From Epilithonimonas vandammei (lineage in GTDB: Bacteria; Bacteroidota; Bacteroidia; Flavobacteriales; Weeksellaceae), in the NCBI RefSeq assembly GCF_003860525.1, contig NZ_CP034161.1:2418001-2482000 (forward strand): a stretch of DNA of 64,000 bases. The letters run 5' to 3'. Below are positions 32,163 to 58,144 of this stretch, piece after piece. Numbering within the stretch: position 1 is the stretch's first letter; each line of letters begins with the position of its first letter. The notes beneath the pieces were generated by a model. It was given only the letters and a program-made list of their open reading frames with translations. It was not told the origin of the DNA and did not search any database. The translations under genes were made by a program, and so were the position numbers.

Positions 32163-34046
32163 CTAATTATCTAGCTCTTGTATTATTTCTTTTCTTTCTA
32201 TATCCGTTTCTTCCACCACCAGATTATCTAGAATAAACAATTGCCGGTCTGGTGTATTTTTTCCCATGTAGAATTCTAGTATCTGATCTATTGTAAGATC
32301 TTTTCCTACAACTACAGGCTCCAGTCTGATATCTTTACCTATAAAATTCTTAAATTCATCTGGAGAGATCTCTCCTAATCCTTTGAACCTTGTGATTTCC
32401 GGATTTTTCCCCAAGTCATTCAGCGCTTTCAGTCTTTCCTGATCTGAATAACAATATCTGGTTTCCTTTTTATTTCTTACACGGAAAAGCGGCGTCTGCA
32501 AAATGTACAAATGGCCGTTCTTGATAAGATCTGGGAAAAATTGCAAAAAGAAGGTAATCATCAGCAAACGGATGTGCATCCCGTCCACATCTGCATCTGT
32601 AGCTATAATAACATGATTATACCTTAAATCCTCAAGACTTTCTTCGATATTGAGCGCAGCCTGAAGAAGATTAAATTCTTCATTCTCGTAAACTACTTTT
32701 TTTGTCAGTCCGTAGCAGTTCAGTGGTTTTCCCTTCAGAGAAAAAACAGCCTGAGTTTCCACATCCCTGGATTTAGTTATGGATCCTGATGCCGAATCTC
32801 CTTCGGTAATAAAAATCATCGTTTCCGATTTTCTAGCCGCTTTCTGATCATTGTAATGCTGTCTGCAATCTCTCAGCTTTTTATTATGAAGTGATACTTT
32901 CTTTGCTCTTTCCCTGGCCAGTTTCTGAATGCCGGACAGTTCTTTTCTTTCTCTTTCGGAAATGATAATTTTTTTAAGAATCGCTTCTGCAGTTTCTGGG
33001 TTTTTATGAAGAAAATTATCCAGCTTATTTTTCAGAAAATCTATGATAAATGTTCTTACAGTAATGCCTCCTGGTTCAATCTCATTGGATCCGAGCTTTG
33101 TTTTGGTCTGAGATTCGAAAACAGGTTCTATAACCTTGATGGAAACTGCTGCAATGATTGATTTCCGGATGTCTGCTGCCTCAAAATTCTTATTATAAAA
33201 TTCCCTGATTGTTTTTACGAATGCTTCCCGAAAAGCATTAAGATGTGTTCCGCCCTGTGTAGTATTTTGTCCGTTTACAAATGAAAAGTAGGTTTCTGTC
33301 TGCGACTTGTCCGAGTGTGTGATAGCAACTTCAATATCTTCCTCTTTTAGATGTACGATGGGATAAAGAATATCACTTTCCAATTCTTCTTCTAAAAGAT
33401 CTTTGAGTCCGTTTTCCGAAAAAAACTTCTCTCCATTGAAAACAATCGTTAATCCTGGATTGAGATAAGCATAGTTTCGGAGCATCCGTTCCACATATTC
33501 TTTTCGGAATTTGAAATTGAGAAAAATCTCGCTATCAGGAATAAAACTGATTTCGGTTCCGTTTCTGTCGGATGAATCTGTCTCGGGAAAATTTTCTTTG
33601 ATGACACCTCTGGAAAATTCGGCCATTTTCATACGACCGTCTCTTACAGATTTTACTCTGAAAAAATCTGACAGTGCATTCACCGCTTTAGTCCCGACTC
33701 CGTTAAGACCTACCGATTTTTTAAACGCTTTACTGTCATACTTTCCGCCGGTATTCATTTTAGAAACCGCATCTATAACTTTTCCCAAAGGAATCCCTCG
33801 CCCGAAATCACGGATGGAAACTTTTCCGTCATCCATTTTGATCTCAATCCGTTTTCCAGCCTTCATCACAAACTCATCAACAGAGTTGTCTATAATTTCT
33901 TTGAGAAGGATATAAATCCCGTCATCTGCAGAAGAACCATCTCCCAATTTTCCGATATACATCCCGGGACGCAAGCGTATATGTTCTTGCCAGTCAAGCG
34001 TTCGGATATTGTCTTCGGAATAATTTACAGGATTGATTTCACTCAT
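32163..34046 (-). CDS. parE: DNA topoisomerase IV subunit B
   Basis: A 627-residue ATPase subunit of topoisomerase IV. GHKL ATPase domain at 1-220 with [60 protein letters not shown] and [20 protein letters not shown]; transducer domain with [26 protein letters not shown] domain with [20 protein letters not shown] and [17 protein letters not shown]; and the C-terminal [14 protein letters not shown]-like stretch ([17 protein letters not shown]). Length and lack of the GyrB insertions favour ParE. It is the first gene of the parE - membrane protein - parC - rhomboid series. Confidence 0.94.
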
Positions 34047-34167
34047 AATTGCTGAATTTCTATAACGTCTAAGCCTTTAAGAATCGGTAACTCACAAATT
34101 TAGCGAAATGAAATTTAATCTGAAAATTTTGATAATATTTTTTAGTTGTTATTTACTTAAAATCAAA

Positions 34168-34191
34168 AAAGCCAGAACGATGTCTGACTTT
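34168..34191 (-). terminator. Terminator behind the AIM24-like gene
   Basis: AAAGCCAGA pairs with TCTGACTTT with one mismatch around a six-base loop; on the minus strand T6 follows. It lies just behind the stop at 34214. Confidence 0.75.
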
Positions 34192-34213
34192 AAAAATTTA
34201 TTATCAATTGGTA

Positions 34214-34990
34214 TCAATTACCGTCAATGAGATCTCCCAGTTTCCCCAAAATACTTCCTTCTTCTCTTCTTGTGCCACTGCCATACTGAAGAATTTTTCC
34301 GGCAAGACGGCTGATTGGCAAAGTTTGTACCCAAACTTTTCCAGGTCCTCTTAGTTCTGCAAAAAATAAACCCTCACCTCCGAACAGCGTATTTTTTATA
34401 CCTCCTACAAATTGGATATCATAAGAAACTGACTGCGTAAAAGCAACAATACAGCCAGTATCGATCTTAAGTATTTCTCCATGCATCAGCTCTTTTTCCA
34501 TCACATAACCGCCGCTATGCACAAAACACATTCCGTCTCCTTCCAGCTTTTGCATAATGAAACCTTCCCCCCCGAAAAGTCCGGTTCCCAATTTTCTCTG
34601 AAACTCGATCCCGATAGAAACACCTTTTGCAGCGCAAAGGAAACTATCTTTCTGACAAATGATTTTTTCTCCAAATTCGGACAGGTTGAGAGGAATGATT
34701 TTCCCAGTGTATGGTGCAGCAAAGGAAACCTGTCTTTTCTGAGAAGAAGTATTGGTAAATACCGTCATAAAAAGACTTTCCCCTGTAAGCATTCTTTTTC
34801 CGGCTGTGAAAAGTTTATTCATAAACCCGGAATTACTTCCATCTCCGAAAAGTGTTTCCATTTGGATTCCCTCATTCATCATCATAAAACTGCCCGGTTC
34901 TGCAATGACTGCTTCCTGTGGATCCAGTTCAATCTCTACACACTGAAGTTCTTCTCCGTAGATTTTATAATCTATTTCGTGATTTCTCAT
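34214..34990 (-). CDS. TIGR00266/AIM24 family protein
   Basis: A 258-residue all-beta cytoplasmic protein of the TIGR00266 family, related to AIM24. Family marks: VEIELDPQEAVIAEPGSFMM, LTGESLFMTVFTNTS, GEKIICQKDSFLCAAKGVSI, GTGLFGGEGFIMQKLEG, FVHSGGYVMEKEL and FGGEGLFFAELRGPGKVWVQ followed by TLPISRLA. The two GLFGGEG / LFGGEG repeats are the clearest signature. The biochemical role is unknown. It is monocistronic, with its own terminator. Confidence 0.93.
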   Translation of the reverse strand: MRNHEIDYKIYGEELQCVEIELDPQEAVIAEPGSFMMMNEGIQMETLFGDGSNSGFMNKLFTAGKRMLTGESLFMTVFTNTSSQKRQVSFAAPYTGKIIPLNLSEFGEKIICQKDSFLCAAKGVSIGIEFQRKLGTGLFGGEGFIMQKLEGDGMCFVHSGGYVMEKELMHGEILKIDTGCIVAFTQSVSYDIQFVGGIKNTLFGGEGLFFAELRGPGKVWVQTLPISRLAGKILQYGSGTRREEGSILGKLGDLIDGN

Positions 34991-35035
34991 TTATTTTATT
35001 TTTAAGAATTAGTTTTCCTAAAGCTTAAAACGTTA

Positions 35036-35063
35036 CAAAAAAAGCTTCCTGTTTCGGAAACTT
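35036..35063 (-). terminator. Terminator behind the T9SS-sorted protein gene
   Basis: On the minus strand AAGTTTCC and GGAAGCTT pair (one G-T) around a six-base loop, followed by T7. It lies just behind the stop at 35068. Confidence 0.7.
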
Positions 35064-35067
35064 AGTT

Positions 35068-35868
35068 TTATTTTTTGATGAGTTTTTTGGAGATCACATT
35101 TTTATCCGAATAAACATTAATGATATACTCGCCGTTAGAAAGATCTTTGATGTTGATTTCCTGAGATTTTACTTCTTTCACAATTTTTCCGGTCATATCA
35201 AAAACTCTTACATTGTCTATATTTTTGATTCCTGAAATCTTAACCAATTCAGTTGCAGGATTCGGGAAAACCCTGAGCGACAAAGCAGGAGATTCTGAGA
35301 TTGCCATTCCTGAGTTATCTTTTATTTCAATATCATCAATTCCCATATAGAAAATATCCTCGCAATCATAATGTCTGAAGACCAGCTTAACATTTTGCCC
35401 TGCATAAGATGAAATATCAATGTTGATAACTTTAGCTACATTAACATATCCTGCATCAAAGGTTTCTTCGAAAACAGGTGTTTCCGATCCGGTGAAAACA
35501 GAATTTGCAGGAATTACATAAACCGCATAATGCTCCTCAAACAAATCCGCATCGCCCGCTGCCGCTTTGAACGACAAATTAAGAGAATTAGAATTCGGAA
35601 GTGTAATGGAAGGGCTTTCCAGAAGGTTATCCGGAGTAAAAGCCTCAAGATACCAGGAAAATGAAACAGCAAGATTACCTGTGAAATTTGGGAGCTCATT
35701 CAGCCCGGCATTCAGGATTTCCCAAGATTCGCCATCACCGTCTTTATCATAAACTTTCCAAAGCGCAACGGATGCATCATTCTCAAAATCTTCTTTAAAA
35801 ACACTTGTCTGTGCATTACTAAATATAGCCGTTCCTAAAACAGAAGCAAAAAGTAATTTTTTAATCAT
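35068..35868 (-). CDS. T9SS type A sorting domain protein with jelly-roll domain
   Basis: A 266-residue secreted protein. Signal peptide MIKKLLFASVLGTAIFSNAQ (1-20). A choice-of-anchor J-like jelly-roll domain follows (about 22-185): VFKEDFENDASVALWKVYDK, SWEILNAGLN, FSWYLEAFTPDNLLESPSI, LNLSFKAAAGDADLFEEHYA and IFYMGIDDIEIKDN. The last 75 residues are a type A C-terminal signal of the type IX secretion system: LRVFPNPATELVKISG, VRVFDMTGKIVKE and LSNGEYIINVYSDKNVISKK. It is therefore expected to be exported across the outer membrane and attached to or released from the surface. Ligand or substrate unknown. Confidence 0.92.
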   Translation of the reverse strand: MIKKLLFASVLGTAIFSNAQTSVFKEDFENDASVALWKVYDKDGDGESWEILNAGLNELPNFTGNLAVSFSWYLEAFTPDNLLESPSITLPNSNSLNLSFKAAAGDADLFEEHYAVYVIPANSVFTGSETPVFEETFDAGYVNVAKVINIDISSYAGQNVKLVFRHYDCEDIFYMGIDDIEIKDNSGMAISESPALSLRVFPNPATELVKISGIKNIDNVRVFDMTGKIVKEVKSQEINIKDLSNGEYIINVYSDKNVISKKLIKK

Positions 35869-35904
35869 AATCCTTTATTTTTTAATTTTCGCTAAAATAC
35901 AAAT

Positions 35905-35928
35905 AAAAAACTCCCGACAAATCGGGAG
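35905..35928 (-). terminator. Terminator behind ychF
   Basis: CTCCCGA (35911-35917) pairs with TCGGGAG (35922-35928), loop of four; on the minus strand T6 follows. It ends the ychF transcript. Confidence 0.85.
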
Positions 35929-35955
35929 CTGTAACTTTATTATATCATCTATGAA

Positions 35956-37047
35956 TTACACATTGAATCTGAAGTGCATCACATCGCCATCTTTTACGAT
36001 GTATTCTTTTCCTTCCACTCTCATTTTTCCAGCTTCTTTCACTTTAGATTCTGAGCCATAGTTCACAAAATCTTCATAACCAATAACTTCCGCACGGATA
36101 AATCCTTTTTCGAAATCTGTATGGATTACACCAGCCGCTTGTGGCGCAGTCCAGCCCTGCCCAATAGTCCAGGCTCTTACTTCCTTTACTCCAGCGGTAA
36201 AATAAGTTTGCAACTTTAGAAGATCGTAAGCTTTTCTGATCAATCGGTTTACACCCGGCTCTTCCAGACCAAGCTCATCCAGAAACATCTCTCTTTCTTC
36301 GAAGGTTTCCAGCTCGTTGATATCAGCTTCTATCTGAGCTGCCAGAACTACAACTTCCGCTCCTTCATTTTTTGCCATTTCCTCGATTTTTGCGATCCAG
36401 TCATTTCCGTTTTTAATAGAGTTTTCATCTACATTACAAACGTAAAGAACAGGTTTATTTGTGAGCAATTGGACTTCTCCGATAATTGATTTTGTGAAAT
36501 CGTCCATAGGAAATTCTCTAGCGTTTTTTCCATCTTCTACAAATTTCTGAAGATTCTGAAGTGTTTCGTAAGTCAGGATATCTTCTTTTTTTCCAGATTT
36601 GATAAACTTTTTCGCTTTTTCTACAGCTTTGCCAATAGTTTCAAGATCTTTAAGCTGAAGTTCTATATCAATGATTTCTTTGTCCCTCATAGGATCTACA
36701 GAACCTTCTACGTGTACGATATTACCGTTATCAAAACATCTCAAAACGTGAATAATCGCCTCACACTCACGGATATTCGCCAGAAACTGATTTCCAAGAC
36801 CTTCTCCTTTACTGGCTCCTTTTACCAAACCGGCAATATCCACAATTTCTACCACCGCTGGCAATACTCTTTCCGGATTTACAAGTTTTTCTAACTCGAA
36901 CAATCTTTTGTCCGGAACGGAAACTGTTCCCAAGTTAGGTTCAATAGTACAAAACGGATAGTTTGCAGACTGTGCCTTGGCGTTGCTAAGACAGTTAAAA
37001 AGAGTTGATTTTCCTACATTTGGAAGACCTACGATTCCACATTTCAT
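35956..37047 (-). CDS. ychF: Redox-regulated ATPase YchF (Obg-like)
   Basis: A 363-residue P-loop protein of the OBG family that prefers ATP. G1 GIVGLPNVGKSTLFNCLSNA (4-23), switch region YPFCTIEPNLGTVSVPDKRL, G3 VDIAGLVKGASKGEGLGNQF, the altered G4 site VLYVCNVDENS (about 200-210) typical of YchF, a coiled-coil insertion and the C-terminal TGS domain with LLKLQTYFTAGVKEVRAWTI and the ending EYIVKDGDVMHFRFNV. It binds ribosomes and is involved in stress responses. Monocistronic with a terminator behind it. Confidence 0.97.
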   Translation of the reverse strand: MKCGIVGLPNVGKSTLFNCLSNAKAQSANYPFCTIEPNLGTVSVPDKRLFELEKLVNPERVLPAVVEIVDIAGLVKGASKGEGLGNQFLANIRECEAIIHVLRCFDNGNIVHVEGSVDPMRDKEIIDIELQLKDLETIGKAVEKAKKFIKSGKKEDILTYETLQNLQKFVEDGKNAREFPMDDFTKSIIGEVQLLTNKPVLYVCNVDENSIKNGNDWIAKIEEMAKNEGAEVVVLAAQIEADINELETFEEREMFLDELGLEEPGVNRLIRKAYDLLKLQTYFTAGVKEVRAWTIGQGWTAPQAAGVIHTDFEKGFIRAEVIGYEDFVNYGSESKVKEAGKMRVEGKEYIVKDGDVMHFRFNV

Positions 37048-37213
37048 AACGAAATTTTTTTTTATTTATTAATGTTATGCAAGCTTTTCGGCTCGATCAT
37101 CTAAAAAGCAATATTTAATTTTTTTTAATGCTAAAATTTCAAATCATTAACACTGATTTTCAGAGTGCGCAAAGATACTGATTTTGTTTTGGAAATTTTG
37201 TTTTTTGTTTCTA
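37048..37213. other. Gap between divergent ychF and DUF721 genes, ychF side
   Basis: AT-rich spacer between the ychF start and the promoter at 37214. Apart from likely ychF promoter sequence, nothing is seen in it. The reading frames on both strands across 37131-37529 are shadows over the repeat-rich leader. Confidence 0.4.
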
Positions 37214-37431
37214 TTGGATGTAAGACAAGTTTTATATTTTTGCGTAAGCTTCCTATGTTGCGAAGCTGTGTGAGGGCGAAGGCAATTGTCGGAGCTCTTT
37301 TTATAAAAACTTCCGAAGTTTTTATAAAAAAGCGACTTGCCGAAGACCGACCCGAAGTTTGCGAAATGATGGCGCGAGCGAAGCGAGCGCCAGAGATGAG
37401 CAACTGAGGGACACACCCAAATAATAACCCA
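37214..37431 (+). promoter_or_regulatory. Promoter and structured leader of the DUF721 gene
   Basis: A well-formed Bacteroidota promoter: TTG (37214-37216), 18 bases, TATTTTTG (37235-37242). The predicted transcript would have a leader of about 180 bases before the ATG at 37432. The leader is unlike the surroundings: GC-rich patches, a 33-base palindrome (37298-37330; arms TTTTTATAAAAACTTC and its complement around one central base), and a direct repeat gcgagcgaagcgagcg near 37375. The palindrome could end or pause transcription. No protein reading is convincing. Whether this is a regulatory leader, a small RNA or a repeat insertion is open. Confidence 0.5.
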
Positions 37432-37728
37432 ATGAGCAGAAAAAAACGTGAATTCCATTCTTCTGAACTTCTTAGTTCTTTTGCAAAAATATACGGTTTC
37501 GAAGATAAATTAAAAGCTTTCGAAATCAAAGATTTTTTGGAAAATTACCTTTCTGAGGATCTTTTTTCCGAGATAGAAACGGTGAATCTGAAAGAAAAAG
37601 TTTTGGTTTTGCGCATAAAATCGCCACTGCTGAAAAATGATTTCAGAATGAGGAAATCCTTTTTCCTGAAGAAGTTCCGAGAAGTTTTAAAAGACGAATC
37701 GCTGATTAATGATTTGCTGATTTTGTAG
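37432..37728 (+). CDS. DUF721 (DciA-like) protein
   Basis: A 98-residue basic protein of the DUF721 family, which includes DciA, the helicase-loading partner of DnaB in bacteria without DnaC. The KH-like core is visible: EIETVNLKEKVLVLRIKSPL, followed by LKNDFRMRKSFFLKKFREVL. It is short and lacks a long extension, as usual in Bacteroidota. Its 3' end overlaps that of the converging Gcr-type gene by 23 bases. The loader role is inferred from the family. Confidence 0.85.
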   Translation: MSRKKREFHSSELLSSFAKIYGFEDKLKAFEIKDFLENYLSEDLFSEIETVNLKEKVLVLRIKSPLLKNDFRMRKSFFLKKFREVLKDESLINDLLIL

Positions 37729-39733
37729 CAATTTCTTCAATCATTTTTTTACTTTTTTCATCCAGCCTGGATCTGAGAGGAAAGAAAAAACGGAATGGGT
37801 TTCTGATAAAGTATCTGAAAATCTCTCTGAAAATTTCTTTAGCCTCATTAATCTCTACTTTTCTTGACCTGAAAGCCAACAGCATAGATAATCCGAAACT
37901 GACTGCAAAGTTGAAAAATCCGATAACAAAAACGGTCACAAACGATATCCAAAATGTATATGAGCTCACTACAAAATCTTTTCCGTAAAGTCCCAAAGCA
38001 AAGTTACCGGCTGCAAAAGTTATGTGGCGGATATCCAGATCCAGCCCCAGAAAAAGACCGATTGGAGCAGTTGCTCCAAGAAAAACACCAAACCAGAAAT
38101 TGGAAATGATACCTGCCCAGTTTTTGGAATAATAAATCGATAATTGCTTGGCAAATCGTGGTCCAAAAAAATAATTAATCGATGGATTTTTAGCAATTCT
38201 TTTAGGAATCTGATAAAAAACCGAATTATTGCTAATATTACCGGAAATAACGCCAGAAATAAAGAGAAAAACACCAGCTATACAAGCATGCAAAATAGCT
38301 TTTGACTGAAAGGGATCCAAATCATGTAACAATTTTGTTGACTTTTCGAATGCAAAATTCTGTTTAAAAAGTATTTCGAGTCCATATATCATTGCTAATG
38401 CGACAGGGAAAGACATCAACACATTTCCAATAAACGCAATAAACTGCGATCTGAAAAGCTGTGAAACAACATGCGCAAATTCTGTATAAGTATTTGTGCT
38501 ATCACCTTCCGAGAGCACCTTCGCCATTGTGGCTGCGGTCATAGCAGGTTGTTTGGTTGCCAGGGTAAAATGCATCAAGTAGATCATCACAAATCCCATC
38601 GCATAATTCATAGAAAACAAAAATGCGTGGGCAAAATCACTGGTTGGGATATAACTGTAAAGCATTTTCAAAATACATAGCGCTCCGACAATAACGCCAC
38701 CCCCAGAAGCTTTCCAGAACATCTTCATATAACCTTTGAAAGTAGAAGTGATGTAATGCGTACCTGTTTCCGCCGTATGATTGGTTATGAGATGCGACAT
38801 CAGACGGGTGCTGTCCGAAACAAGATCCCGAAGATTGTTCTTATGAGACTTATATCTGAGTATATTGAAAAAAAGCTGCTTAGAATTAATCAGGTAATCT
38901 TTTTCTGTATCTACCACAAAAAGCTTAATCGTATCAGCCATTCTTTGGAGCTGTTGCCTGATTTTCAGTAATGACTGATTGGTCTTGCTGGAAATCCCAT
39001 ATTTTGAGGAATTTTTAAATGCAATATTTATAAATTCCAAACACTGATCTAGATAAACTTTCGTTTGTTTATACAAGACATCCGTTGAGGACATCTGGAA
39101 ATCAGGATTATCTTTAAACTCAGAATTAAGTACATCCAACTCGTTCTGAAGCGCAAGGAAGGGGTTATCGAAATTGCGATATTCTGGAGCCATTTTCATT
39201 ACTTCTACATCCAGAGCATTGCCTATCACACGCCAAGCAAGAATATTGACTGAGAAGAGAAGCTCTTTCTTGACTTTAGGATTTCTAATAAAATCATCGA
39301 TTTTAAGCAATCTAAATAACTCATCCATTTTATCCTCCGGTGAATTCTGAAAGAAGCTCAGATCCTTTTTTGGCGTTACCAAAACATTATCTACAAGATA
39401 CCAGACCGTTTTTTCATTTTCAATGGGAGGAAGAACTTTATTAAGCAATCTTTTTTTAAACTCTGGGAAAAAAGCATTTTCAGAAAGGATATCGGCTTCT
39501 GTAAGAGAAAGATTAAATGACCTGTCTTTAAAGATATTTCTCAGGTATGTCGTCAGATTATTAGTGATGGTTTTATTATCCTTCAGATAAGCCGTAAAAA
39601 CGCCCAATTCTTCTTTTTTAAGACTTGTTATAATTTCTGACAAAGGATCCAAAGACAATGTTTCATTTTCTTCTGCAAAATACTTTTTCAGAATTGTACT
39701 GAAAGTGTCTTTTTTAAATAATCTGATTCCCAT
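37706..39733 (-). CDS. Gcr-family membrane protein (annotated as site-specific recombinase)
   Basis: A 675-residue protein of the family PF10136 (SpecificRecomb, gonococcal Gcr-like). The N-terminal half is helical and soluble (ILKKYFAEENETLSLDPLSE, LLKIRQQLQRMADTIKLFVV). The C-terminal half has about seven membrane segments (GGGVIVGALCILKMLYSYIP, AMGFVMIYLMHFTLATKQPA, SQFIAFIGNVLMSFPVALAM, LHACIAGVFLFISGVISGNI and others) with the marker motifs LMHFTLATKQPAMTAATMA and SGVISGNISNN. No tyrosine- or serine-recombinase active site is seen, and the topology makes a DNA recombinase unlikely. It overlaps DUF721 at the 3' end and is 17 bases downstream of mtgA on the same strand. Confidence 0.85.
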   Translation of the reverse strand: MGIRLFKKDTFSTILKKYFAEENETLSLDPLSEIITSLKKEELGVFTAYLKDNKTITNNLTTYLRNIFKDRSFNLSLTEADILSENAFFPEFKKRLLNKVLPPIENEKTVWYLVDNVLVTPKKDLSFFQNSPEDKMDELFRLLKIDDFIRNPKVKKELLFSVNILAWRVIGNALDVEVMKMAPEYRNFDNPFLALQNELDVLNSEFKDNPDFQMSSTDVLYKQTKVYLDQCLEFINIAFKNSSKYGISSKTNQSLLKIRQQLQRMADTIKLFVVDTEKDYLINSKQLFFNILRYKSHKNNLRDLVSDSTRLMSHLITNHTAETGTHYITSTFKGYMKMFWKASGGGVIVGALCILKMLYSYIPTSDFAHAFLFSMNYAMGFVMIYLMHFTLATKQPAMTAATMAKVLSEGDSTNTYTEFAHVVSQLFRSQFIAFIGNVLMSFPVALAMIYGLEILFKQNFAFEKSTKLLHDLDPFQSKAILHACIAGVFLFISGVISGNISNNSVFYQIPKRIAKNPSINYFFGPRFAKQLSIYYSKNWAGIISNFWFGVFLGATAPIGLFLGLDLDIRHITFAAGNFALGLYGKDFVVSSYTFWISFVTVFVIGFFNFAVSFGLSMLLAFRSRKVEINEAKEIFREIFRYFIRNPFRFFFPLRSRLDEKSKKMIEEIATKSANH

Positions 39734-39750
39734 ATTACTTACAAAAATAA

Positions 39751-40398
39751 TTATTTCAGAACAATATTATTCATCTGCCGCATAATCCAACTGTGTTTTT
39801 TTCGAAGATAGGCGCTCGGGTTTTTCGGGTCATATTTTTTTGGATTTGGCAATACAGCAGCAATCCAAGCAGCCTCGCTCTTGTTTAGATCTTTTGCAGG
39901 CTTGTTGAAGTAATATTGGGAAGCTGCTTCTACTCCGAAAACGCCTTGTCCCATTTCAATAGAATTGAGATACCTTTCCAGAATCACATCTTTTCCCCAT
40001 ATCTTCTCTATTATGAAAGTATAAACAGCCTCCAGTCCTTTGCGGAACCAGCTTCTACCCTGCCAAAGAAATATATTCTTTGCCGTTTGTTGGGAAATTG
40101 TGCTGCCACCTCTTACTACCTTTCCTGTTTTATCATTTTTCTTCATGGCCTTTTCGATTTGTTTATAATCGAAACCATTATGTTTAAAGAACAATTGATC
40201 TTCCGACGCAATTACAGCTTTTTTCACATTGTTGCCCATCTCATCATAACTGATGTAGTCACGGTGTAACTTTCCGTATTTTATCAGACCGTCTAATTGT
40301 GTCCAAGTAATTGGGGGATTAAAAAAGATGCCGTAAATGATAAAGATAATATTAGCTATTATTAAAATAAAAAACAGTTTTTTGATAAACTTCCACAT
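39751..40398 (-). CDS. mtgA: Monofunctional biosynthetic peptidoglycan transglycosylase
   Basis: A 215-residue GT51 enzyme that polymerises lipid II into glycan strands. One N-terminal membrane anchor (FFILIIANIIFIIYGIFF), then the catalytic motifs of family 51: AVIASEDQLFFKHNGFDYKQ (motif 1, with the catalytic Glu), GGSTISQQTAKNIFLWQGRS (motif 2), KGLEAVYTFIIEKIWGKDVI followed by LERYLNSIEMGQGVFGVEAA (motifs 3 and 4) and KSEAAWIAAVLPNPKKYDP (motif 5). No transpeptidase domain, hence monofunctional. Probably cotranscribed with the Gcr-type gene. Confidence 0.95.
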   Translation of the reverse strand: MWKFIKKLFFILIIANIIFIIYGIFFNPPITWTQLDGLIKYGKLHRDYISYDEMGNNVKKAVIASEDQLFFKHNGFDYKQIEKAMKKNDKTGKVVRGGSTISQQTAKNIFLWQGRSWFRKGLEAVYTFIIEKIWGKDVILERYLNSIEMGQGVFGVEAASQYYFNKPAKDLNKSEAAWIAAVLPNPKKYDPKNPSAYLRKKHSWIMRQMNNIVLK

Positions 40399-40608
40399 GG
40401 GTTAAAGAAATATTCAGCGAAAATAAGACAATTATTTTTTTCCTGTCTGTTGAAATTGAAAACTTGAAAGATAAATTTCTTGATTTTAGAATTTCTGAGA
40501 TTATCTTGGTATGACACCAATCATTGCAGGACCTAGCAATTTTTGAAAGCAAATCGTAATCAATAGAACTAAATTAATTTTTTCAGATTGATTTGGCTAC
40601 AATCACAA

Positions 40609-40640
40609 AAAAACTCACAACCAGAATGATTGTGAGTTTA
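40609..40640. terminator. Hairpin behind the tRNA-Arg remnant
   Basis: AAACTCACAA pairs with TTGTGAGTTT around a ten-base loop, with A-runs before it. On the minus strand T-rich sequence follows, so it is placed to end transcription of the tRNA gene. It marks the chromosomal side of the junction. Confidence 0.75.
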
Positions 40641-40642
40641 AG

Positions 40643-40687
40643 TGAGCGCGTCAGGATTCGAACCTGAGACCGTCTGCTTAGAAGGCA
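40643..40687 (-). other. 3' part of a tRNA-Arg(TCT) gene, probable att site
   Basis: The minus strand reads the anticodon loop CTTCTAA (anticodon TCT), stem GCAGA, a short variable loop, the T arm TCAGG-TTCGAAT-CCTGA and the acceptor half CGCGCTC followed by the discriminator A. The 5' half should follow above 40687, but only three bases of the anticodon stem (TGC) agree; then the sequence changes to unrelated DNA. A cut in the anticodon stem with an intact 3' end is the classic product of a tyrosine integrase that uses a tRNA 3' end as attachment site: the intact tRNA is then at the far end of the island. No integrase gene is in the window. Confidence 0.75.
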
Positions 40688-40860
40688 TTTACTAGCGCCT
40701 TAAACCCTGTGTAAACGTTTATTTATACTAATTTTTTAATTGTTTTTTGACGGTATTTTATTTAAAATGTTACTCTTAATGTTGCAACAAATATATAAAT
40801 AAAAATGATTTTTTGAACATTATTCTGTAAGTCAAAACACATTTTTTCTGATACCAAATA

Positions 40861-41300: not shown

Positions 41301-41433
41301 AAATGTTCATCTTATAATTTTTAAATAATCTAAATAGTCGCTCCTTAAAATAGCATCAACAGACTGAAAATCAATAAAGTAATTGTAATTTTTCTTGTTT
41401 TTCTTTGCAGGATTTCGTATCTTGGAGCATTAA

Positions 41434-42791
<1,358 letters not shown>

Positions 42792-42919
42792 GGAGTGACT
42801 ATATAGTTGAAATAAAAAATCGGTAGTGTCCTACTAACTGTGTAAGTAGAAAAGTTATTCTGAAAAATTTTGAGCCCTCAAAGCTCAAAAAATTTTTCGG
42901 AAACCTAACGAAGTGGTGA

Positions 42920-43156: not shown

Positions 43157-44128
43157 ATGGTAAATTTAGAAAAGAAAGTAGTAGGAATTGACGTAAGCTC
43201 AAAGTTTTTGACCATAAGTTTCAAAAACGCACAAAACCAAGAAATCGTAATGAATATTGGCAATTTGAAAAAAGATATTTTAAGCTGTCTGAAAAAGTTA
43301 GACCAAAAGGATTATAAAATTGTAGTAGAAGCCACCGGTTCTTACAGTAGCAAAATCCTTTACTATGCTTATTCAAAGGGATTTGATGTTTATCAGGTAA
43401 ATCCTTTGACGATTAAAAAATATGCAGAAGTAAGAAACTTAATCAGTAAAACTGATGATGAAGATGCTAAATTAATCCGGGATTTTGGAGAGAAAATGGA
43501 AATTTGTCCTTTTGAACCCAAAAAAGAGAATCTTGAATTTTTAGAACAGGAACTCAATCTTTTGCAGGATTTGGAACAGGAGAAAGCGAGATTTTCATTA
43601 AAATTAAAATCTCTGCGCCAAAAAGCAAGACTCAATAAAGAGGTGGTAAAACATTATGAAACATTGATTAATAATTTGCAAAAAGAGATAGAAAAACTTT
43701 TGAAACGATTGCCAAAACTGGAAGATGAGGAATTGCAAGAGAATAAAACTCTGCTCAAGAGCATTAATGGAATTGGAGAGAAAACCTCGCTCTTATTGCT
43801 GGTTGCAACGAACCATTTCAAGAGTTTTGAACACTCAAAATCGGTAAGTAAATACTTTGGAGTTGCTCCAAGAATGTATCATTCCGGAAACAAAAAAATA
43901 ACAATCGGCAAATGTCGAACAACCAAAGAATATATCCGAAGTGTCTTATTCATCTGCTCTTGGAGTGCGGTAAAATGCAATCCGCAATGCAAAGCCTTAT
44001 ATGAAAGGATTTTGGAAAAAGGGAAATGTAAAAAATTAGCTTTAATAGCAGTTTGCAACAAACTGCTACGACAAGCCTTTGGAATAATAAAATCTAAAAA
44101 CAAATATCAACTGGATTTTGCAAAATAA
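43157..44128 (+). CDS. IS110-family transposase
   Basis: A 323-residue recombinase of the DEDD type. N-terminal RuvC-like domain (DEDD_Tnp_IS110): Asp in KVVGIDVSSKFLTISF, Glu in KIVVEATGSYSSKIL, Asp pair in SKTDDEDAKLIRDFGEK. A coiled-coil (LNLLQDLEQEKARFSLKLKS) links to the C-terminal Transposase_20 domain with LLKSINGIGEKTSLLLLVAT, SVSKYFGVAPRMYHSGNKK (the Ser of SGNK is the conserved nucleophile) and EYIRSVLFICSWSAVKCNP. The gene is intact, so the element may be active and would need a bridge RNA. Confidence 0.93.
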   Translation: MVNLEKKVVGIDVSSKFLTISFKNAQNQEIVMNIGNLKKDILSCLKKLDQKDYKIVVEATGSYSSKILYYAYSKGFDVYQVNPLTIKKYAEVRNLISKTDDEDAKLIRDFGEKMEICPFEPKKENLEFLEQELNLLQDLEQEKARFSLKLKSLRQKARLNKEVVKHYETLINNLQKEIEKLLKRLPKLEDEELQENKTLLKSINGIGEKTSLLLLVATNHFKSFEHSKSVSKYFGVAPRMYHSGNKKITIGKCRTTKEYIRSVLFICSWSAVKCNPQCKALYERILEKGKCKKLALIAVCNKLLRQAFGIIKSKNKYQLDFAK

Positions 44129-44219: not shown

Positions 44220-44846
44220 ATGACCAGTAAAGAAGATTTATTAAACAACAAGGATTTCTACAAATCCTTCAAAAACGGAGAAGATTTAACCTCGTTCTTC
44301 AAAGAACTGCACAAAAAAGCAGTAGAACATATGCTGGATGCTGAATTAGACAGCCATCTTGACAATGAAAAACACGAAAAAACCACCAATGGAAACTACC
44401 GAAACGGACACGGAACTAAGAAGATTAAGTCATCCTTTGGCGAATCCGAAATTAAAGTTCCCCGTGATAGAGAAGGGAGTTTTGAACCTGCTTTAGTTCC
44501 CAAAAGACACAATATCATCGATGGTTTGGAGAATATCATTATCTCGTTTTATGCTAAAGGAATGAGCGTTTCGGATATTGAAGAACAAATTCGTGAAATG
44601 TATGATTTTGAAGTTTCTACTTCCCTACGCATAAATTCTAATCTTTTTGCCCACATTGAAAAACTGGCTAAACAAGAAAATAGAAGTTTGAATAATTTTA
44701 TTGAAACCACTCTTTTTAATGCTTTGGATTACAGAGAAGCCAACGCAATAACAAAAACCGGGATAAAAGAATCCCGAAAAGAAAGAACTTCATTAAAAAA
44801 GTATTCTAGCACGGAGGAAGTATTTCAAGATGTAGAAGATAAATAG
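44220..44846 (+). CDS. Chimeric ORF: IS256 transposase N-terminus fused to an RHH antitoxin
   Basis: A 208-residue open frame from two sources. Residues 1-135 are the N-terminal part of an IS256 (Mut) transposase: LTSFFKELHKKAVEHMLDAE, TTNGNYRNGHGTKKIKSSFG, VPRDREGSFEPALVPKRHN, GMSVSDIEEQIREMYDFEVS. From about 137 the frame continues as a ribbon-helix-helix antitoxin: LRINSNLFAHIEKLAKQENR, SLNNFIETTLFNALDYREAN, ending STEEVFQDVEDK. The join is in frame after VSTS, about six residues into the antitoxin. The antitoxin part keeps its whole RHH core and tail, so the fusion could still bind DNA, but no cognate toxin gene follows. It may be an accident of recombination. Confidence 0.7.
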   Translation: MTSKEDLLNNKDFYKSFKNGEDLTSFFKELHKKAVEHMLDAELDSHLDNEKHEKTTNGNYRNGHGTKKIKSSFGESEIKVPRDREGSFEPALVPKRHNIIDGLENIIISFYAKGMSVSDIEEQIREMYDFEVSTSLRINSNLFAHIEKLAKQENRSLNNFIETTLFNALDYREANAITKTGIKESRKERTSLKKYSSTEEVFQDVEDK

Positions 44847-44913: not shown

Positions 44914-45030
44914 ATGGGTGTATTAATTGGAAAAATTGAAATTTGGGCTTATTTGGAGCTTAAGAAGGGAAATCAAAATCTGTATAACTTTGTAAATAAA
45001 TTTAAAGACATGACAACAATAAGTTTTTAA
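44914..45030 (+). CDS. Very small ORF behind the chimera
   Basis: A 38-residue reading from ATG 44914: MGVLIGKIEIWAYLELKKGN, then QNLYNFVNKFKDMTTISF. It overlaps the 3' end of the converging oxidoreductase gene by four bases. I recognise nothing in it; it may be the remnant of a longer gene or not a gene at all. Confidence 0.2.
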   Translation: MGVLIGKIEIWAYLELKKGNQNLYNFVNKFKDMTTISF

Positions 45031-45578
45031 ATTGTATTTAATTCCTGCAATTTTTCTATTAGCCTATTGGCGTGGTCTTTCGCTTTATTCTTTACTTCAT
45101 TTTCTGTATATCCCGCAGCCACAGATGTGCCGTAACAATAAATCGGATCAATGTAATTCATCTGTGTATGGTAAGCCGTTTGTTCTAAATTTTTGCAAAA
45201 TTCATACACGCGAAAATGTTGGAAACCTAAGGTTCTATAACTGCTTTCCGACGAACCAGCAGTGAAGCTGGGCACAAAGTTTTTACCTTTCAACTTGTCG
45301 CCTTTTGAGCCATACGCAAATTGATGTTCAAATACTTCGTCAAACCAATGTTTCAATATCGCTGGCATACTATACCAATAAAACGGATATTGAAAAACGA
45401 TTGTCTGATGTCGCAATAGTGCTTCTTGTTCGGCTTTTACATTGATTTTGTAGTCGGGATACAACTCGTGAATATTTCTGATTTCTAATTCCAAATCACT
45501 TTTTTGTAATTCTTCGATAATCGTTTTGTTGGCAAAGGACTTATCGAAATTTGGGTGTGCTAAAATAACTAATGACAT
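45027..45578 (-). CDS. NAD(P)H-dependent oxidoreductase (flavodoxin-like)
   Basis: A 183-residue FMN-dependent quinone-reductase-type enzyme (Flavodoxin_2). FMN site at the N-terminus: LVILAHPNFDKSFANKTIIE; then LRHQTIVFQYPFYWYSMPAI and LKHWFDEVFEHQFAYGSKGD, the core signature of the YwrO/KefF/MdaB group; then KNFVPSFTAGSSESSYRTLG. It reduces quinones or other electrophiles with NAD(P)H in the cytoplasm. It is divergent from an HxlR-type regulator with 86 bases between the starts, a familiar redox-sensing pair. It lies in the replaced middle of the IS256 element. Confidence 0.9.
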   Translation of the reverse strand: MSLVILAHPNFDKSFANKTIIEELQKSDLELEIRNIHELYPDYKINVKAEQEALLRHQTIVFQYPFYWYSMPAILKHWFDEVFEHQFAYGSKGDKLKGKNFVPSFTAGSSESSYRTLGFQHFRVYEFCKNLEQTAYHTQMNYIDPIYCYGTSVAAGYTENEVKNKAKDHANRLIEKLQELNTI

Positions 45579-45664: not shown

Positions 45665-46051
45665 ATGAAAACAGAATGTATAGGCGATTTCGTAAAATTG
45701 AACGGTAAAACTTATCCCTGCACAGTAAGTTTAACTATGGATTTAGTTGGCGGAAAATGGAAAGCCGTAATCCTTTACCATTTAAAAGATGACGAAAAGA
45801 GGTATAATGCACTTCGTAAGGAAATTCCTTCTATTACCGAAATGACTTTGAGTTTACAGTTGAAGCAATTGGAAAAAGACGGTCTTGTGTCAAGAAAAGT
45901 TCACGGTAAAAAACCGCCTGTAAAAGTCATTTACAGTTTAACCGATTTCGGTAAAAGTATTATTCCTGTTTTGGAAGCTGTTACAAAATGGGGAAATAGA
46001 GTTGTAGAAGAAAAAGGAGAATTTATTTCTGCTGAACGTCCTATCTATTAA
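45665..46051 (+). CDS. HxlR family transcriptional regulator
   Basis: A 128-residue winged-helix regulator. Characteristic order: Cys in YPCTVSLTMDLVGGKWKAVI (about 20-39), LYHLKDDEKRYNALRKEIPS, ITEMTLSLQLKQLEKDGLVS, RKVHGKKPPVKVIYSLTDFG and a C-terminal dimer helix (VLEAVTKWGNRVVEEKGEF). The N-terminal Cys20 before the helix is the redox- or electrophile-sensing cysteine in HypR/QorR-like members, which fits the divergent quinone-reductase-type gene. It probably represses that gene and itself. Confidence 0.93.
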   Translation: MKTECIGDFVKLNGKTYPCTVSLTMDLVGGKWKAVILYHLKDDEKRYNALRKEIPSITEMTLSLQLKQLEKDGLVSRKVHGKKPPVKVIYSLTDFGKSIIPVLEAVTKWGNRVVEEKGEFISAERPIY

Positions 46052-46097: not shown

Positions 46098-46780
46098 TAA
46101 ACTGCAAAGTCATTAACAAAACCATTTATTTAGCCGTAGGCTTGAACCGTGAAGGAAGAAAAGAAGTTTTGGGAATGTGGCTTGGAAAGAACGAAAGTTC
46201 CAGCTTTTGGATGAGTGTTTTAACCGATTTAAAAGCTCGTGGTGTTGAAGATATTTTGATTACCGCTACCGATAATTTAAATGGATTTACCCAGACCATC
46301 CGCTCCGTTTTCCCTGAATCCCAAACCCAAATCTGCGTAGTCCACCAGATAAGAAATGCTTGTAAATACGTGGTTTGGAAGGACAGAAAAGCGTTTTCTG
46401 CCGATATGAAACACATTTATACTGCGCCTACAAAAGAAGCCGCCAAAGCAGCCCTGGAAGATTTTGCAACCAAATGGGAAAGTAAATATTTGTACGCCAT
46501 TCAATCCTGGAGAAACAATTGGGACGAACTCACCGTATTTTTTGATTTCCCAATCGAAATCCGAAAAATCATTTACACCACCAATTTAATTGAAAACCTC
46601 AATGGAAAAATCCGAAAATACACTAAAAATAAAATGTCTTTTCCTACGGATGATGCTGTTTTAAAGTCGGTGTATCTTGCTCTAAAAGAAGCTACCAAAA
46701 AATGGACAATGCCTATCCATAATTGGGGATTGGTTTTAAACCAATTTATGCTTATTTTTGAAAAAAGGCTCAGATTATAA
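46098..46780 (+). pseudogene. IS256-family transposase, C-terminal part
   Basis: From [20 protein letters not shown] the frame runs through [20 protein letters not shown], the second catalytic Asp in [20 protein letters not shown], the typical [15 protein letters not shown], and the Glu region [20 protein letters not shown] followed by NGKIRK. The beginning, including the first catalytic Asp, is missing; the N-terminal 135 residues are at 44220-44624. The frame has no proper start of its own. Inactive. Confidence 0.85.
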
Positions 46781-46907: not shown

Positions 46908-47490
46908 TTAGATCCAATTACCATTTACTTTAGCTTGCAATTTAGCAGAGTTAGCGCCATGGGAAATTAAAAATTGTTTAACATTATTAGCTCTTCTCTC
47001 AGATAGATTTTGGTTGTAACTTTCAGAGCCTCTCGTATCAGTTGCACCAATTACCTCATATGAACCATTATTAGAATTGATATAGCTAATTGCGCTGTTC
47101 AAGATCGGCGAATTATTAGGTTTAATTCTGTCACAGTTAAGATCAAATTCAATACCGTTCATAACTGTTTCATCTGCTGACACTACACCGTTTCCATTTT
47201 TGTTAAGTGGACAACCATTATTCTCCACAGGTCATGAGACAAAGCTTTGTCAATACTGAAATAAGCAGAATAGCCTACAAGCGTATTACCATTTTGAATT
47301 GATTTTAAATCTGCATTTGCATTAATGGAACACCTCCTCCAAAAGATAGAGACCAGCTGTTGTAAGTTGGAGATGTATTTGTTGTTATTGTTGTTGGTTC
47401 CACAGCATTTGTTGTCTGCATCGTTTCCTGTCAAAACATCATGGCCGGACATACCCAGGCCATGGACAAAATTGTTAATTTTGATTTCAT
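46908..47490 (-). pseudogene. OmpA-family outer membrane protein, decayed
   Basis: From ATG 47490 the minus strand reads a signal peptide (MKSKLTILSMAWVCPAMMF) that ends at a TGA where the cleavage-site alanine is expected, then QETMQTTNAVEPTTITTNTS and TYNSWSLSFGGGVPLMQ, a frameshift, NADLKSIQNGNTLVGYSAYF and SIDKALSHD. Most of the beta-barrel is deleted; in another frame the C-terminal OmpA peptidoglycan-binding domain follows: FDLNCDRIKPNNSPILNSAI, YEVIGATDTRGSESYNQNLS, ERRANNVKQFLISHGANSA. At least one stop, two frame changes and a deletion are present. The gene once encoded an OmpA porin of the kind common in Chryseobacterium-like bacteria. Confidence 0.75.
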
Positions 47491-47680: not shown

Positions 47681-49230
47681 AATGAGGCTGTCTCAAAAGG
47701 ACAGTCTTTTTTTGTGCTTTGTTTAAAAATCCGATTTTTGAAGTTTTCTATTTTTGATTTTTTGAAAAACAAAGCTAAAAAAGTCAAAAAACAGTCTTTT
47801 TCAGGCTGCTTTTGTCATTTTTTTGAGATTGTGGGCAATGGCGAGAATGCCGATTTCTACTTCGACCTTGGTTTTTCCTCGAAGCATAAAACGTTTAAAG
47901 TTTTTGTTGTGTTTGAGCTCTGCAAAAACAGGTTCAACATCGTGACATCGCTGTTTTCGGAGTTTAATGCCTTTCTTGGTATTGAGAAGTTTAAAAGCCT
48001 TTTCTCTGATTTTTGCCAGCTTCGGATTGTTTTGAGAAGTGGTTATTTGTCCCGATTTTTGATCTTTTCTGAAGTAATTGTATTTAACATAAGGTTTTAT
48101 TTTATTGTTTTTCAGTAGGTTATAGTTTTCTTCCGAACCGTAGCCTGCATCGGCAACGAGCTCTTTCGGAACTTTATGATAGCTGTCTTCAAAACCTTTT
48201 AAATGAGACTCCAATGTTTTGGTATCCGTAGGATTGGGATGGATGGAATAATGTAAAATAAATTGTTTATTCGTAGAAATCTGTAGATTATAGGCCGCTT
48301 TGAGTTGTCCGTTTCGCATATGATCCTCTTTCATCCGCATAAAAGTAGCATCTGTATCGGTCTTGGAATAAGAGTTTCTGGCTTGTAAAATCGCCTGTTG
48401 TTTTTTGTATTTATCCAAATTGTTTGCCCAGTTTTTCTTGGCATAATTCAGTTTCTGACGAACTTTCGAAGGTATTTTTTTATCCTTCAACACCTCGTTG
48501 ATCTTGTCTATGGTTTGTGTTACTTTTTCGGAATCAATCTCCTTAAAATCGATGTTTTCAGTGTTTTGAAGTTCTTCTTTTGCCACACTTTCTGCATAAT
48601 TCCAAAGTTCTTCCAGTTGATCGGCTATCCTTTCTTGATGCTTCTTGATGGCTCTTCCCCAAACAAAAGTATAGCGGTTGGCATTGGCCTCTATCTTGGT
48701 TCCATCTACAAAAGTGGTTTCCAGGCTTACCAAGCCTTCCTTCTCCAAGAGCAAAACAATTTGTGTAAAGATGGCTTTTACTTCACCCTTTAATCGCTCG
48801 CTTCGAAACCTGTTCAAAGTATTATGATCAGGACGGCTCATCGCCGAAAGCCACATGAAATGGATGTTTTCTTTCAATGCCTGTTCCATTTTCCGGCTTG
48901 AATAAATGTTACTCAAATAACCATAAATCAATACTTTCAAAAGCATTTTCGGGTGGTAAGATGAAGTTCCTCCCGGTTTGTAGGTTTTGATTAAATTTTT
49001 AATATCCAAACCATCGATGATGTTTGAAACTATTTTCACAGGATGCTTGTCATCAATCAACTCCGACAAATTCGGAGGAAAAAGCAAATTTTCTTTGGGA
49101 TTGTAATCTTTAAAGACTACTTTTGACTTAGTTAACACACAGCAAATTACGAAATTTGCAACTATTAGGAAAGCCGAGGCTTTCCTTTTTTGCATAAAAA
49201 AGGCTATCTCGCTTTTGAGACAGCCTCATT
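47681..49230 (-). mobile_element. IS1182-family insertion sequence
   Basis: About 1,550 bases with inverted ends AATGAGGCTGTCTCAAAA and its complement (TTTTGAGACAGCCTCATT). It is flanked by GAAAAA on both sides (47675-47680 and 49231-49236), which reads as a six-base target duplication. It holds one transposase gene (47801-49195) on the minus strand. The right end lies 41 bases from the stop of the kdp histidine kinase gene. Confidence 0.88.
47801..49195 (-). CDS. IS1182-family transposase
   Basis: A DDE transposase of about 440-464 residues. DUF772-type N-terminal domain: LSELIDDKHPVKIVSNIID, GGTSSYHPKMLLKVLIYGYL, SNIYSSRKMEQALKENIHFM, SRPDHNTLNRFRSERLK. Catalytic core: Asp in ETTFVDGTKIEANANRYTFV, Asp in PKELVADAGYGSEENYNLLK, Glu in QRCHDVEPVFAELKHNKNFK, then IGILAIAHNLKKM. 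The first 20 or so residues of the longest frame (MQKRKASAFLIVANF..) look unnatural; translation probably begins near the GTG-TTA at about 49140, giving LTKSKVVFKDYNPKENLLFP. Intact. Confidence 0.92.
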   Translation of the reverse strand: MQKRKASAFLIVANFVICCVLTKSKVVFKDYNPKENLLFPPNLSELIDDKHPVKIVSNIIDGLDIKNLIKTYKPGGTSSYHPKMLLKVLIYGYLSNIYSSRKMEQALKENIHFMWLSAMSRPDHNTLNRFRSERLKGEVKAIFTQIVLLLEKEGLVSLETTFVDGTKIEANANRYTFVWGRAIKKHQERIADQLEELWNYAESVAKEELQNTENIDFKEIDSEKVTQTIDKINEVLKDKKIPSKVRQKLNYAKKNWANNLDKYKKQQAILQARNSYSKTDTDATFMRMKEDHMRNGQLKAAYNLQISTNKQFILHYSIHPNPTDTKTLESHLKGFEDSYHKVPKELVADAGYGSEENYNLLKNNKIKPYVKYNYFRKDQKSGQITTSQNNPKLAKIREKAFKLLNTKKGIKLRKQRCHDVEPVFAELKHNKNFKRFMLRGKTKVEVEIGILAIAHNLKKMTKAA

Positions 49231-50996: not shown

Positions 50997-52162
50997 TACG
51001 AAAGAATTACTAGATCTATATTTTCCTGAGACAATTTATTGAGCAGCGTGTTAAACGTATCGCTGGCCAGAATGACCTTCCAAAGGTTTAAATGAGGCTT
51101 ACCGATACAAACTGTTGTGATTTTTCTTTCCTCACACTGTTGCATAATCGCCTGAGCCACTTTGATACTTTCAACTTTTATGATTTCTGCGCCTAATTCC
51201 GTTGCTAATTTAAAATTATTGATTAAATGGCGCTGCTTATCCAAAGCTATTTTGTCTGAACTTTCGCTTGGAATCTGTACATAAAGAAGGTACCACTGGC
51301 TATGATAATAGTTGGCGAGTCTTGCTGTTTTTCGGATGACATTCTTTGCCGTCTTCTCATTAGAACTGATGCAGGCCAAAAACCGCTCTTTCTTTACAGC
51401 CTTGTGGATTACTACTTCTGCTTCAACTTTTCTGGTAACCTGGGAAGCAACTTCTTTTAGAGCCAATTCTCTTAACTGCAAGATACTTTCAGATTTAAAA
51501 AAATTGTTCAGTGCTGCACCAATTTTGGTCTGGTCGTAGATTTTCCCAGCTTTCAAACGATCGATAAGCTCTTCAGCAGTCAAATCTATGTTAACCACCT
51601 CGTCTGCTTCTGATAGCACAGAATCGGGAATCCGTTCTTTGACCTCGATACCAGTGATACTTTTTACTTCATCATTAAGACTCTCAATATGCTGAATATT
51701 AACTGCACTGATGACGTTGATTCCTGAATCAAGTATTTCCATAACATCCTGCCAGCGTTTATCATTTTTGCTACCTTCAATATTGGTATGCGCCAATTCA
51801 TCGACAATTACCACTTCAGGTCTCAGGTTCAATACAGCCTGAACATCCAATTCTTCAAGCTCTTTTCCTCTGTAGAATAATTTTCTTCTTGGAATAACAG
51901 GTAATCCATCAAGCAGAGCGTGGGTTTCTTTACGGTGATGGGTTTCTATGTACCCTATCTTCACATCAATTCCATTTTCTAAAAGTGCGTGAGCCTCCTG
52001 AAGCATACGGTATGTTTTTCCGACACCGGCACTCATTCCTATATAGACCTTGAACTTACCCCTTCTTGATTTTTTAATCAGGTTAAGAAAATCTTCTGCA
52101 GAACTTCCGTCTTGAGACATCATATAGTTTTTTATTTTTTTTAATTTAATCTTTGTTGACAT
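50996..52162 (-). CDS. kdpD: KdpD sensor protein without kinase domain
   Basis: A 388-residue cytoplasmic protein with only the N-terminal parts of classical KdpD (about 900 residues in E. coli): the KdpD domain (about 30-240) with Walker A in VYIGMSAGVGKTYRMLQEAH, DVKIGYIETHHRKETHALLD, a Walker B-like VVIVDELAHTNIEGSKNDKR and INVISAVNIQHIESLNDEVK, then a universal-stress-protein domain (about 255-388) with FLACISSNEKTAKNVIRKTA. The membrane and kinase parts are absent; a separate kinase is encoded right behind it with a one-base overlap. An ATG at about 52123 (MMSQDGSS) is an alternative start. It is expected to sense K+ or ATP status. Confidence 0.92.
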   Translation of the reverse strand: MSTKIKLKKIKNYMMSQDGSSAEDFLNLIKKSRRGKFKVYIGMSAGVGKTYRMLQEAHALLENGIDVKIGYIETHHRKETHALLDGLPVIPRRKLFYRGKELEELDVQAVLNLRPEVVIVDELAHTNIEGSKNDKRWQDVMEILDSGINVISAVNIQHIESLNDEVKSITGIEVKERIPDSVLSEADEVVNIDLTAEELIDRLKAGKIYDQTKIGAALNNFFKSESILQLRELALKEVASQVTRKVEAEVVIHKAVKKERFLACISSNEKTAKNVIRKTARLANYYHSQWYLLYVQIPSESSDKIALDKQRHLINNFKLATELGAEIIKVESIKVAQAIMQQCEERKITTVCIGKPHLNLWKVILASDTFNTLLNKLSQENIDLVILS

Positions 52163-52256
52163 TTCAAACTTCTATTCGTTTTTCCAATGCTCTGATTTTG
52201 TTACCATATTTTAAGGAAAGTTAGAACATTTATATCCAATTTCATAACTATCGGAA

Positions 52257-52288
52257 GAATCCCTGACGTGTTTCTTCGGCAGGGATTC
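52257..52288 (-). terminator. Hairpin between porin and kdpD genes
   Basis: GAATCCCTG pairs with CAGGGATTC (9 bases) around 14 bases. There is no T-run on the minus strand, so it may be an mRNA-stabilising or attenuating hairpin that separates transporter and sensor genes within the operon. Confidence 0.5.
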
Positions 52289-52308
52289 GCAGTTAAATAT
52301 GGAGACAA

Positions 52309-53400: not shown

Positions 53401-53415
53401 TTCTAAATATATAAT

Positions 53416-53976: not shown

Positions 53977-54058
53977 AATTTTAATAATTGATAATTGAAA
54001 GTTGATAATTGAAATCTAAAATCTATATTATTACAATTTTTATTTTTCAATTTTACAT

Positions 54059-56080: not shown

Positions 56081-56097
56081 TATAATATAGATAAGAA

Positions 56098-57795: not shown

Positions 57796-57798
57796 TTT

Positions 57799-57981: not shown

Positions 57982-57982
57982 T

Positions 57983-58137: not shown

Positions 58138-58144
58138 TTTTTTA

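Follow-up and report, generated by a model that had tools for sequence, protein, structure and literature searches.

A 36-kb genomic island, probably inserted by a tyrosine integrase, in the sole tRNA-Arg(TCT) gene of an Epilithonimonas bacterium

Several described systems resemble the locus reported here. Islander tRNA-integrated islands have a tyrosine integrase, a split tRNA gene, a target regenerated by the island and a displaced 3' fragment at the far end, and a crossover at an anticodon-centred subsite, subsite A, has been described for them (PMC4383910, in excerpt). In ICEKp1 and similar elements the tRNA's own terminator is displaced to the far end, and stem-loops between the tRNA and int have been proposed to attenuate tRNA-int transcripts (PMC13023037, in excerpt). 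The Riemerella anatipestifer 10K island has a tyrosine integrase beside an Arg-tRNA, where integration and excision have been shown experimentally (PMC6764341, in excerpt). The ICECleSHZ29 family of Chryseobacterium, from the same bacterial group as the genome studied here, uses the 3' end of tRNA-Met(CAT) or tRNA-Glu, with the target linked to the integrase type (PMC12561888, in excerpt). Finally, the Cellulophaga phage phi46:1 (KC821611) encodes an integrase 34% identical to the one reported here, and its genome carries the 3' half of a tRNA, which begins near the anticodon and has matching repeat pairs of the GTTAAC type on either side (by eye).

The Epilithonimonas locus (genome G000) has all of the features named for Islander islands, including the anticodon-centred crossover, and does not differ in principle from the excerpted description (PMC4383910), except that here the donor of each tRNA half can be read from two compensated T-stem pairs. 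In comparison with the excerpted account of ICEKp1 (PMC13023037), it belongs to a Flavobacteriales integrase family, has a single strong hairpin between tRNA and int, its CCACA loop mostly conserved, and has no recognised conjugation genes. The Riemerella 10K island differs in its 53-bp perfect repeat of another sequence (PMC6764341, in excerpt), and members of the ICECleSHZ29 family are ICEs whose 17-bp repeats lie at the 3' end of the tRNA (PMC12561888, in excerpt). The hairpin of phi46:1 is weaker and lacks the CCACA loop, and phi46:1 is a phage, whereas the island ORFs scanned include no recognised virion gene. The event is of a known, well-documented kind, here resolved to the base, and the conserved loop is the only part for which no described match was found.

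The analysis window is the 64-kb stretch G000:C1:2418001-2482000 of a genome consisting of a single contig of 3,276,391 bp; coordinates without a prefix refer to this window. The minus strand of 40643-40687 is the 3' 45 nt of tRNA-Arg(TCT), cut in the anticodon stem. Read from 40687 to 40643, it gives TGCCTTCTAAGCAGACGGTC followed by the T arm, the acceptor 3' strand and the discriminator A. The anticodon loop, 3' anticodon stem, variable region, T arm, acceptor strand and discriminator are kept, and three anticodon-stem pairs in, at 40688, the likeness to the tRNA ends (by reading). This departure point bears out an earlier reading of the sequence alone (the sequence-only reading), in which a 3' fragment of tRNA-Arg(TCT) was said to be broken inside the anticodon stem. 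ARAGORN found no intact tRNA in the 64-kb window, and an Rfam search of 38000-64000 at E <= 1 did not report the fragment. A chance match was considered and rejected: the fragment 44-mer occurs once in the window and never in shuffles, and it occurs once genome-wide with up to three mismatches allowed.

To the left of the fragment is a hairpin at 40611-40639 (minus strand, by reading), the native tRNA terminator, which has moved away from the functional tRNA together with the fragment. Beyond it is a flanking chromosome gene at 39751-40398 (minus strand), which we take to be mtgA and which is found near the tRNA in 15/19 relative loci compared. Both the hairpin and the gene match the sister genome G011 (97% nucleotide identity over 7.9 kb), in agreement with the proposal that ordinary chromosome with a correctly placed tRNA terminator lies on this side.

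The 20-bp att core (40668-40687, minus strand) is identical at both island ends and has exactly two copies in the genome, one in the fragment and the other in an intact tRNA-Arg(TCT) at G000:C1 2494994-2495068 (minus strand). This intact gene lies 36,352 bp to the right of the fragment on the same strand and belongs to a tRNA-Ser/tRNA-Pro/tRNA-Arg group. Its 3' end is adjoined, on the same strand, by an ORF for a 417-aa tyrosine integrase (G000:C1 2493630-2494883, minus strand, equivalent to L010 12630-13883), which matches Pfam Phage_integrase (E 7.4e-9) and a PHROG integrase (E 3.4e-19). The island occupies 40688-64000 of the window and runs on to G000:C1:2494993. Over the whole repeat, the fragment and the intact copy are identical at 42/46 positions (20/20 in the core), and the four mismatches of the intact copy to the 45 bases form two compensated T-stem pairs. 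The sequence-only reading had predicted, to the right, an intact tRNA-Arg(TCT) repeating the 45 bases with an integrase gene nearby. The tRNA was found 36.35 kb away, within the few hundred kilobases allowed for a second copy, with the integrase adjoining it; the repeat is not exact. Fragments with the same breakpoint are present in 2/23 genus genomes, G000 and G015 (E. caeni), and both of these carry an integrase of the same family beside the intact tRNA; thus, the same fragment was not seen in relatives without an island. Composition shows no contrast and gives the island no support, as its G+C content (35.7%) equals that of the left flank (35.7%), with 37.1% in the right flank.

The sister G011, the closest relative among the loci compared (97.3-100% amino acid identity over six flanking genes), has an empty site, in which one intact tRNA-Arg joins both flanks with mtgA alongside. 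No match to the integrase was found in G011. Its locus is 97.3% identical at the nucleotide level to window positions 32818-40687 and 96.3% identical to the far side of the intact tRNA of G000, the two matches overlapping by the common core, and the flanks are collinear with G011 across the junction for 7.9 kb on the left and about 5.4 kb on the right. Intact gene and fragment on one replicon, an integrase between them near one end, an identical core and an empty site are the features by which tRNA-integrated islands are recognised, and all are found here. The intact tRNA, the integrase and the empty site together support the suggestion that the fragment is the mark of an integrase recombining at a tRNA 3' end.

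The two halves of the tRNA can be assigned by their T stems. The fragment and the G011 tRNA agree in their T stem (TCAGG/CCTGA) and in having the native terminator, whereas the intact tRNA-Arg of G000 has the T stem AAAGG/CCTTT and a different terminator hairpin. Across 23 genus genomes, AAAGG is found in 11 and TCAGG in 10, with both only in G000; no copy of the core was found in G001. As the T stem of the fragment is that of G011 and the intact copy differs, the 3' half of the intact copy appears to have come with the island, with the crossover in the core. On the simplest reading, the host gene would have been of the TCAGG type, the island would have brought AAAGG, and the crossover would have fallen inside the 20 identical bases TGCCTTCTAAGCAGACGGTC. 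The compensated T-stem difference tells the host-kept half from the island-supplied half and makes the locus a clean natural record of integration.

A parallel island is seen in E. caeni, which has a 50%-identical integrase beside the same tRNA-Arg(TCT). Here mtgA is 56 kb from the tRNA, and the fragment that comes after it has the same end base as in G000; the cores are 56,230 bp apart, the two ends of this segment being the parts that were read. The E. caeni fragment was not matched by the first pattern search because it has three mismatches to the search pattern and two were allowed. A further tRNA-Arg(TCT) remnant is present in G004 (L060, G004:C3:298544 region) besides its AAAGG gene. It has seven more nucleotides at its 5' part and a changed T arm, and adjoins a gene resembling rtcB (by eye); no integrase of the G000 family was found in G004.

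Repeats are also found near the island ends. At the left end, a repeat pair with a period of 12 bp, AATGTTAC-N4-AATGTTGC, is located at 40766-40785 (plus strand), and at the right end a partner pair is located at L010 13898-13917, just upstream of int and about 103 bp from the right core. The pattern AATGTTRC-N4-AATGTTRC has one match in the 64-kb window, located 79 bp inward of the left core, and another in the 19.5-kb L010, with 0 in shuffles in both cases, counts that are descriptive as the repeat patterns were written after sight of the sequences. E. caeni has its own version of the repeat, ATRTTGTC-N4-ATGTTGTC, found once in each of two stretches with its island ends. These paired repeats are candidate integrase arm sites.

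As judged from sequence comparison, it is very probable (roughly 0.96) that a tyrosine integrase brought about the insertion of a genomic island of 36,352 bp at the one tRNA-Arg(TCT) gene of this Epilithonimonas genome. The attP of the island, with its integrase and accessory DNA, would have recombined with the tRNA within the 20-bp anticodon-arm core. The native 3' half and its terminator would thereby have been displaced to the left edge, as the fragment at 40643-40687, while the native 5' half, at the right edge, would have been rejoined to a 3' half and a terminator hairpin that the island carried. This would leave the genome with one tRNA-Arg(TCT) gene, a chimaera dependent on island DNA. 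Both ends of the island, the empty site, the source of each half, the integrase at the rebuilt tRNA, the paired end repeats and the E. caeni parallel can be followed in the sequences; the adjoining integrase presumably performed the insertion, and the island may still be able to excise.

To the right of the fragment, the sequence-only reading had placed pseudogenes, insertion sequences and transferred-looking genes. This side was found to hold a kdp operon and the remnant of an OmpA-domain gene, as well as insertion sequences and a split transposase gene of the IS256 type. An IS5-family insertion sequence at 41335-42801 (plus strand, right end approximate) is 99.8% identical over 1471 bp to a second copy at 60063-61529 (plus strand). 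An IS110-family transposase (43157-44128, plus strand) is followed by a split IS256-type (mutator) transposase, its first part at 44220-44846 and its last part at 46142-46780 (both plus strand), with a flavodoxin-fold oxidoreductase (45027-45578, minus strand) and an HxlR-family regulator (45665-46051, plus strand) between them. In the first part, the IS256-type N-terminus runs into an unrelated C-terminus resembling an antitoxin (by eye). The OmpA-domain remnant (46908-47228, minus strand) and an IS1182-family transposase (47801-49195, minus strand), similar DNA to which is also found beside kdp in G005, precede the kdp block (49272-59850, minus strand), composed of a histidine kinase, a KdpD-like sensor, a porin-like protein, KdpC, KdpB, KdpA and a sigma-54-type regulator. 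Two ORFs at 61741-63118 (plus strand) have no match in Pfam, PADLOC or PHROGs. Further island genes encode a WYL-domain regulator, a type IIG/ISP restriction-modification enzyme, a CAAX protease, a histidine kinase and several unknowns. A tandem array of 6.1 copies of a 34-bp unit is located within the island near the integrase (L010 12050-12257). Scans against Pfam or NCBIfam, which covered 27 distinct ORFs of the island, recognised no relaxase or conjugation genes and no virion genes, and in a PHROGs scan of six proteins the integrase alone was matched.

The kdp block is 89.7-96.6% identical at the nucleotide level to G005 (Epilithonimonas bovis), compared with 74.5-84% for five G005 chromosome blocks around mtgA and the tRNA. 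Against G011, identity is 95% over the porin-KdpC-B-A part and about 74-76% over the sensor and regulator parts. KdpB genes above the family cut-off are found in 19/23 genus genomes, G011 among them, and the island kdpB is the only such copy in G000. Thus, kdp is foreign to the locus but not to the genus, the block having been exchanged among genus members. It is an evenly balanced question whether the island is composite, that is, whether the tRNA integration is real and much of the cargo (the IS elements and the kdp block) was transposed later into a smaller island. The kdp block and IS1182 lie between the two nearly identical IS5 copies, and the stretch in common with G005 ends at 60064, where IS5 copy 2 starts, as a composite origin would have it. 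Such a history would add to integrase-mediated insertion.

That the fragment is instead a decayed duplicate tRNA-Arg, the outer copy of a tandem pair broken by IS insertions, is very improbable. The sister G011 is single-copy, the break falls exactly at the core end, as it does in E. caeni, and no recognised IS touches the fragment, the first beginning at 41335. Tandem tRNA-Arg/tRNA-Pro pairs, about 255-335 bp apart, do occur in 7/23 genus genomes (G003, G007, G014, G016, G017, G021 and G022), and insertion sequences are nearby; however, the T stem is the same within each tandem pair (L011-L014, L016, L017, L025) and different here. Still more improbable is a chromosomal rearrangement through repeats that moved half the tRNA, with the integrase there by coincidence: near-identical IS5 copies lie within the segment, and mtgA and tRNA-Arg(TCT) are apart in G005 (L052/L053) and G010 (L029/L054) with no match to this integrase at the tRNA there, but the compared flanks are collinear with G011 across the junction, the integrase is directly 3' of the rebuilt tRNA, and matching repeats are present at both ends. 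The separations of mtgA and tRNA in G005 and G010 are other rearrangements at the same locus.

Matches to the integrase to which the insertion is attributed were found in 4/23 genus genomes and 53/296 family genomes (E <= 0.001), and with a five-row profile in 8/395 order genomes (E <= 1e-20). In 24 of the 31 integrase-relative loci examined, an intact tRNA (Arg-TCT, Arg-TCG, Met, Thr, Leu, Ala or Cys) is found just upstream, so that the integrase is 3' of the tRNA. In six of the remaining seven the integrase is 3' of a tRNA 3' fragment (by eye), and the seventh is L102. The aligned catalytic boxes of the G000 integrase are R252, K277, Y356-x-x-K359, H389 and Y398. The usual tyrosine-recombinase motif is H-x-x-R, and in the G000 integrase and its family Y-x-x-K is found in its place, with the K replaced by R in L110. 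The integrase of L104, whose ORF contains a stop, differs in the first box and is gapped in the rest. The plasmid collection contained no integrase relative at E <= 1e-5. Five relatives (L154-L158) are on IMG/VR contigs, and thus some elements of the integrase family are classed as viral.

A hairpin is located between the tRNA and the integrase (L010 13957-13993, minus strand), with a changing stem and a mostly conserved CCACA loop in the loci of relatives. This element hairpin lies directly 3' of the tRNA and has 8-13 pairs, usually with T residues after it. When 23 loci were aligned, pairing held in 203/206 cells of the first nine levels of the stem, and each level showed several types of pair. 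The stem was taken as the best one per sequence, a choice that favours pairing. CCACA is in the loop in 19 of the 23. In a wider set, 43 tRNAs were called integrase-linked by script, and in 26 of these CCACA lies within the loop or at its edge. Thirteen of the 43, none with CCACA, were set aside as upstream neighbours within the 330-bp limit. CCACA is thus found in 26/30 tRNAs directly before an integrase match, or, without three loci found through the hairpin pattern (L121, L138 and L144), in 23/27, many of these 27 being the discovery loci again. CCACA is present in each of the four loci that are new among the 27 (L163, L164, L167 and L168), of which two belong to other bacterial families, and in six of seven distinct loci with a tRNA fragment (the exception is L157). 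Among controls without an integrase match, CCACA was found in 0/102 tRNAs and in 0/46 of those with a comparable hairpin, although the control is narrow, as 83 of the 102 are tRNAs for Arg, Pro or Ser. The hairpin with a CCACA-like loop spans tRNA-Arg, -Met, -Thr, -Leu, -Ala, -Cys and -Asn targets. Five hairpins fold at z -4.2 to -5.3, and Rfam at E <= 1 gave no family for the int-side hairpin in the five loci searched.

By analogy with ICEKp1, the hairpin probably ends tRNA transcription and holds int down. The rewriting of the stem with pairing kept, together with the CCACA-like loop kept in most loci, suggests, more tentatively, that the hairpin is not just a spare terminator but an element dedicated to regulation or to recombination, one that could be recognised as RNA or as extruded DNA. 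Such an element would end tRNA transcription before int while the island is integrated, and might be sensed or relieved on excision; we regard this as possible but less likely than not. No description of the conserved CCACA loop was found in the open-licence literature searched, and a conserved loop with a changing stem in an integrase family is possibly new. As it is common to much of the integrase family, the hairpin is a simple target for studying how int stays quiet beside a highly transcribed tRNA.

A search with the hairpin pattern gave matches in 84/296 genomes, at about 109 places versus about 43 for the reversed control (hand count). Of 30 places examined, six (L121, L122, L124, L126, L138 and L144) have an ARAGORN tRNA or an integrase match adjoining. 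The other 24 have neither, 10 of them being variants of one repeat without the extended stem; thus, the short hairpin pattern alone is not specific. In one genome, two hairpins are 46 kb apart (L122 and L112, at G246:C1:3120238 and 3166066), one behind an intact tRNA-Leu and the other behind a tRNA-Leu 3' end, as if two elements had accreted in tandem at a single tRNA.
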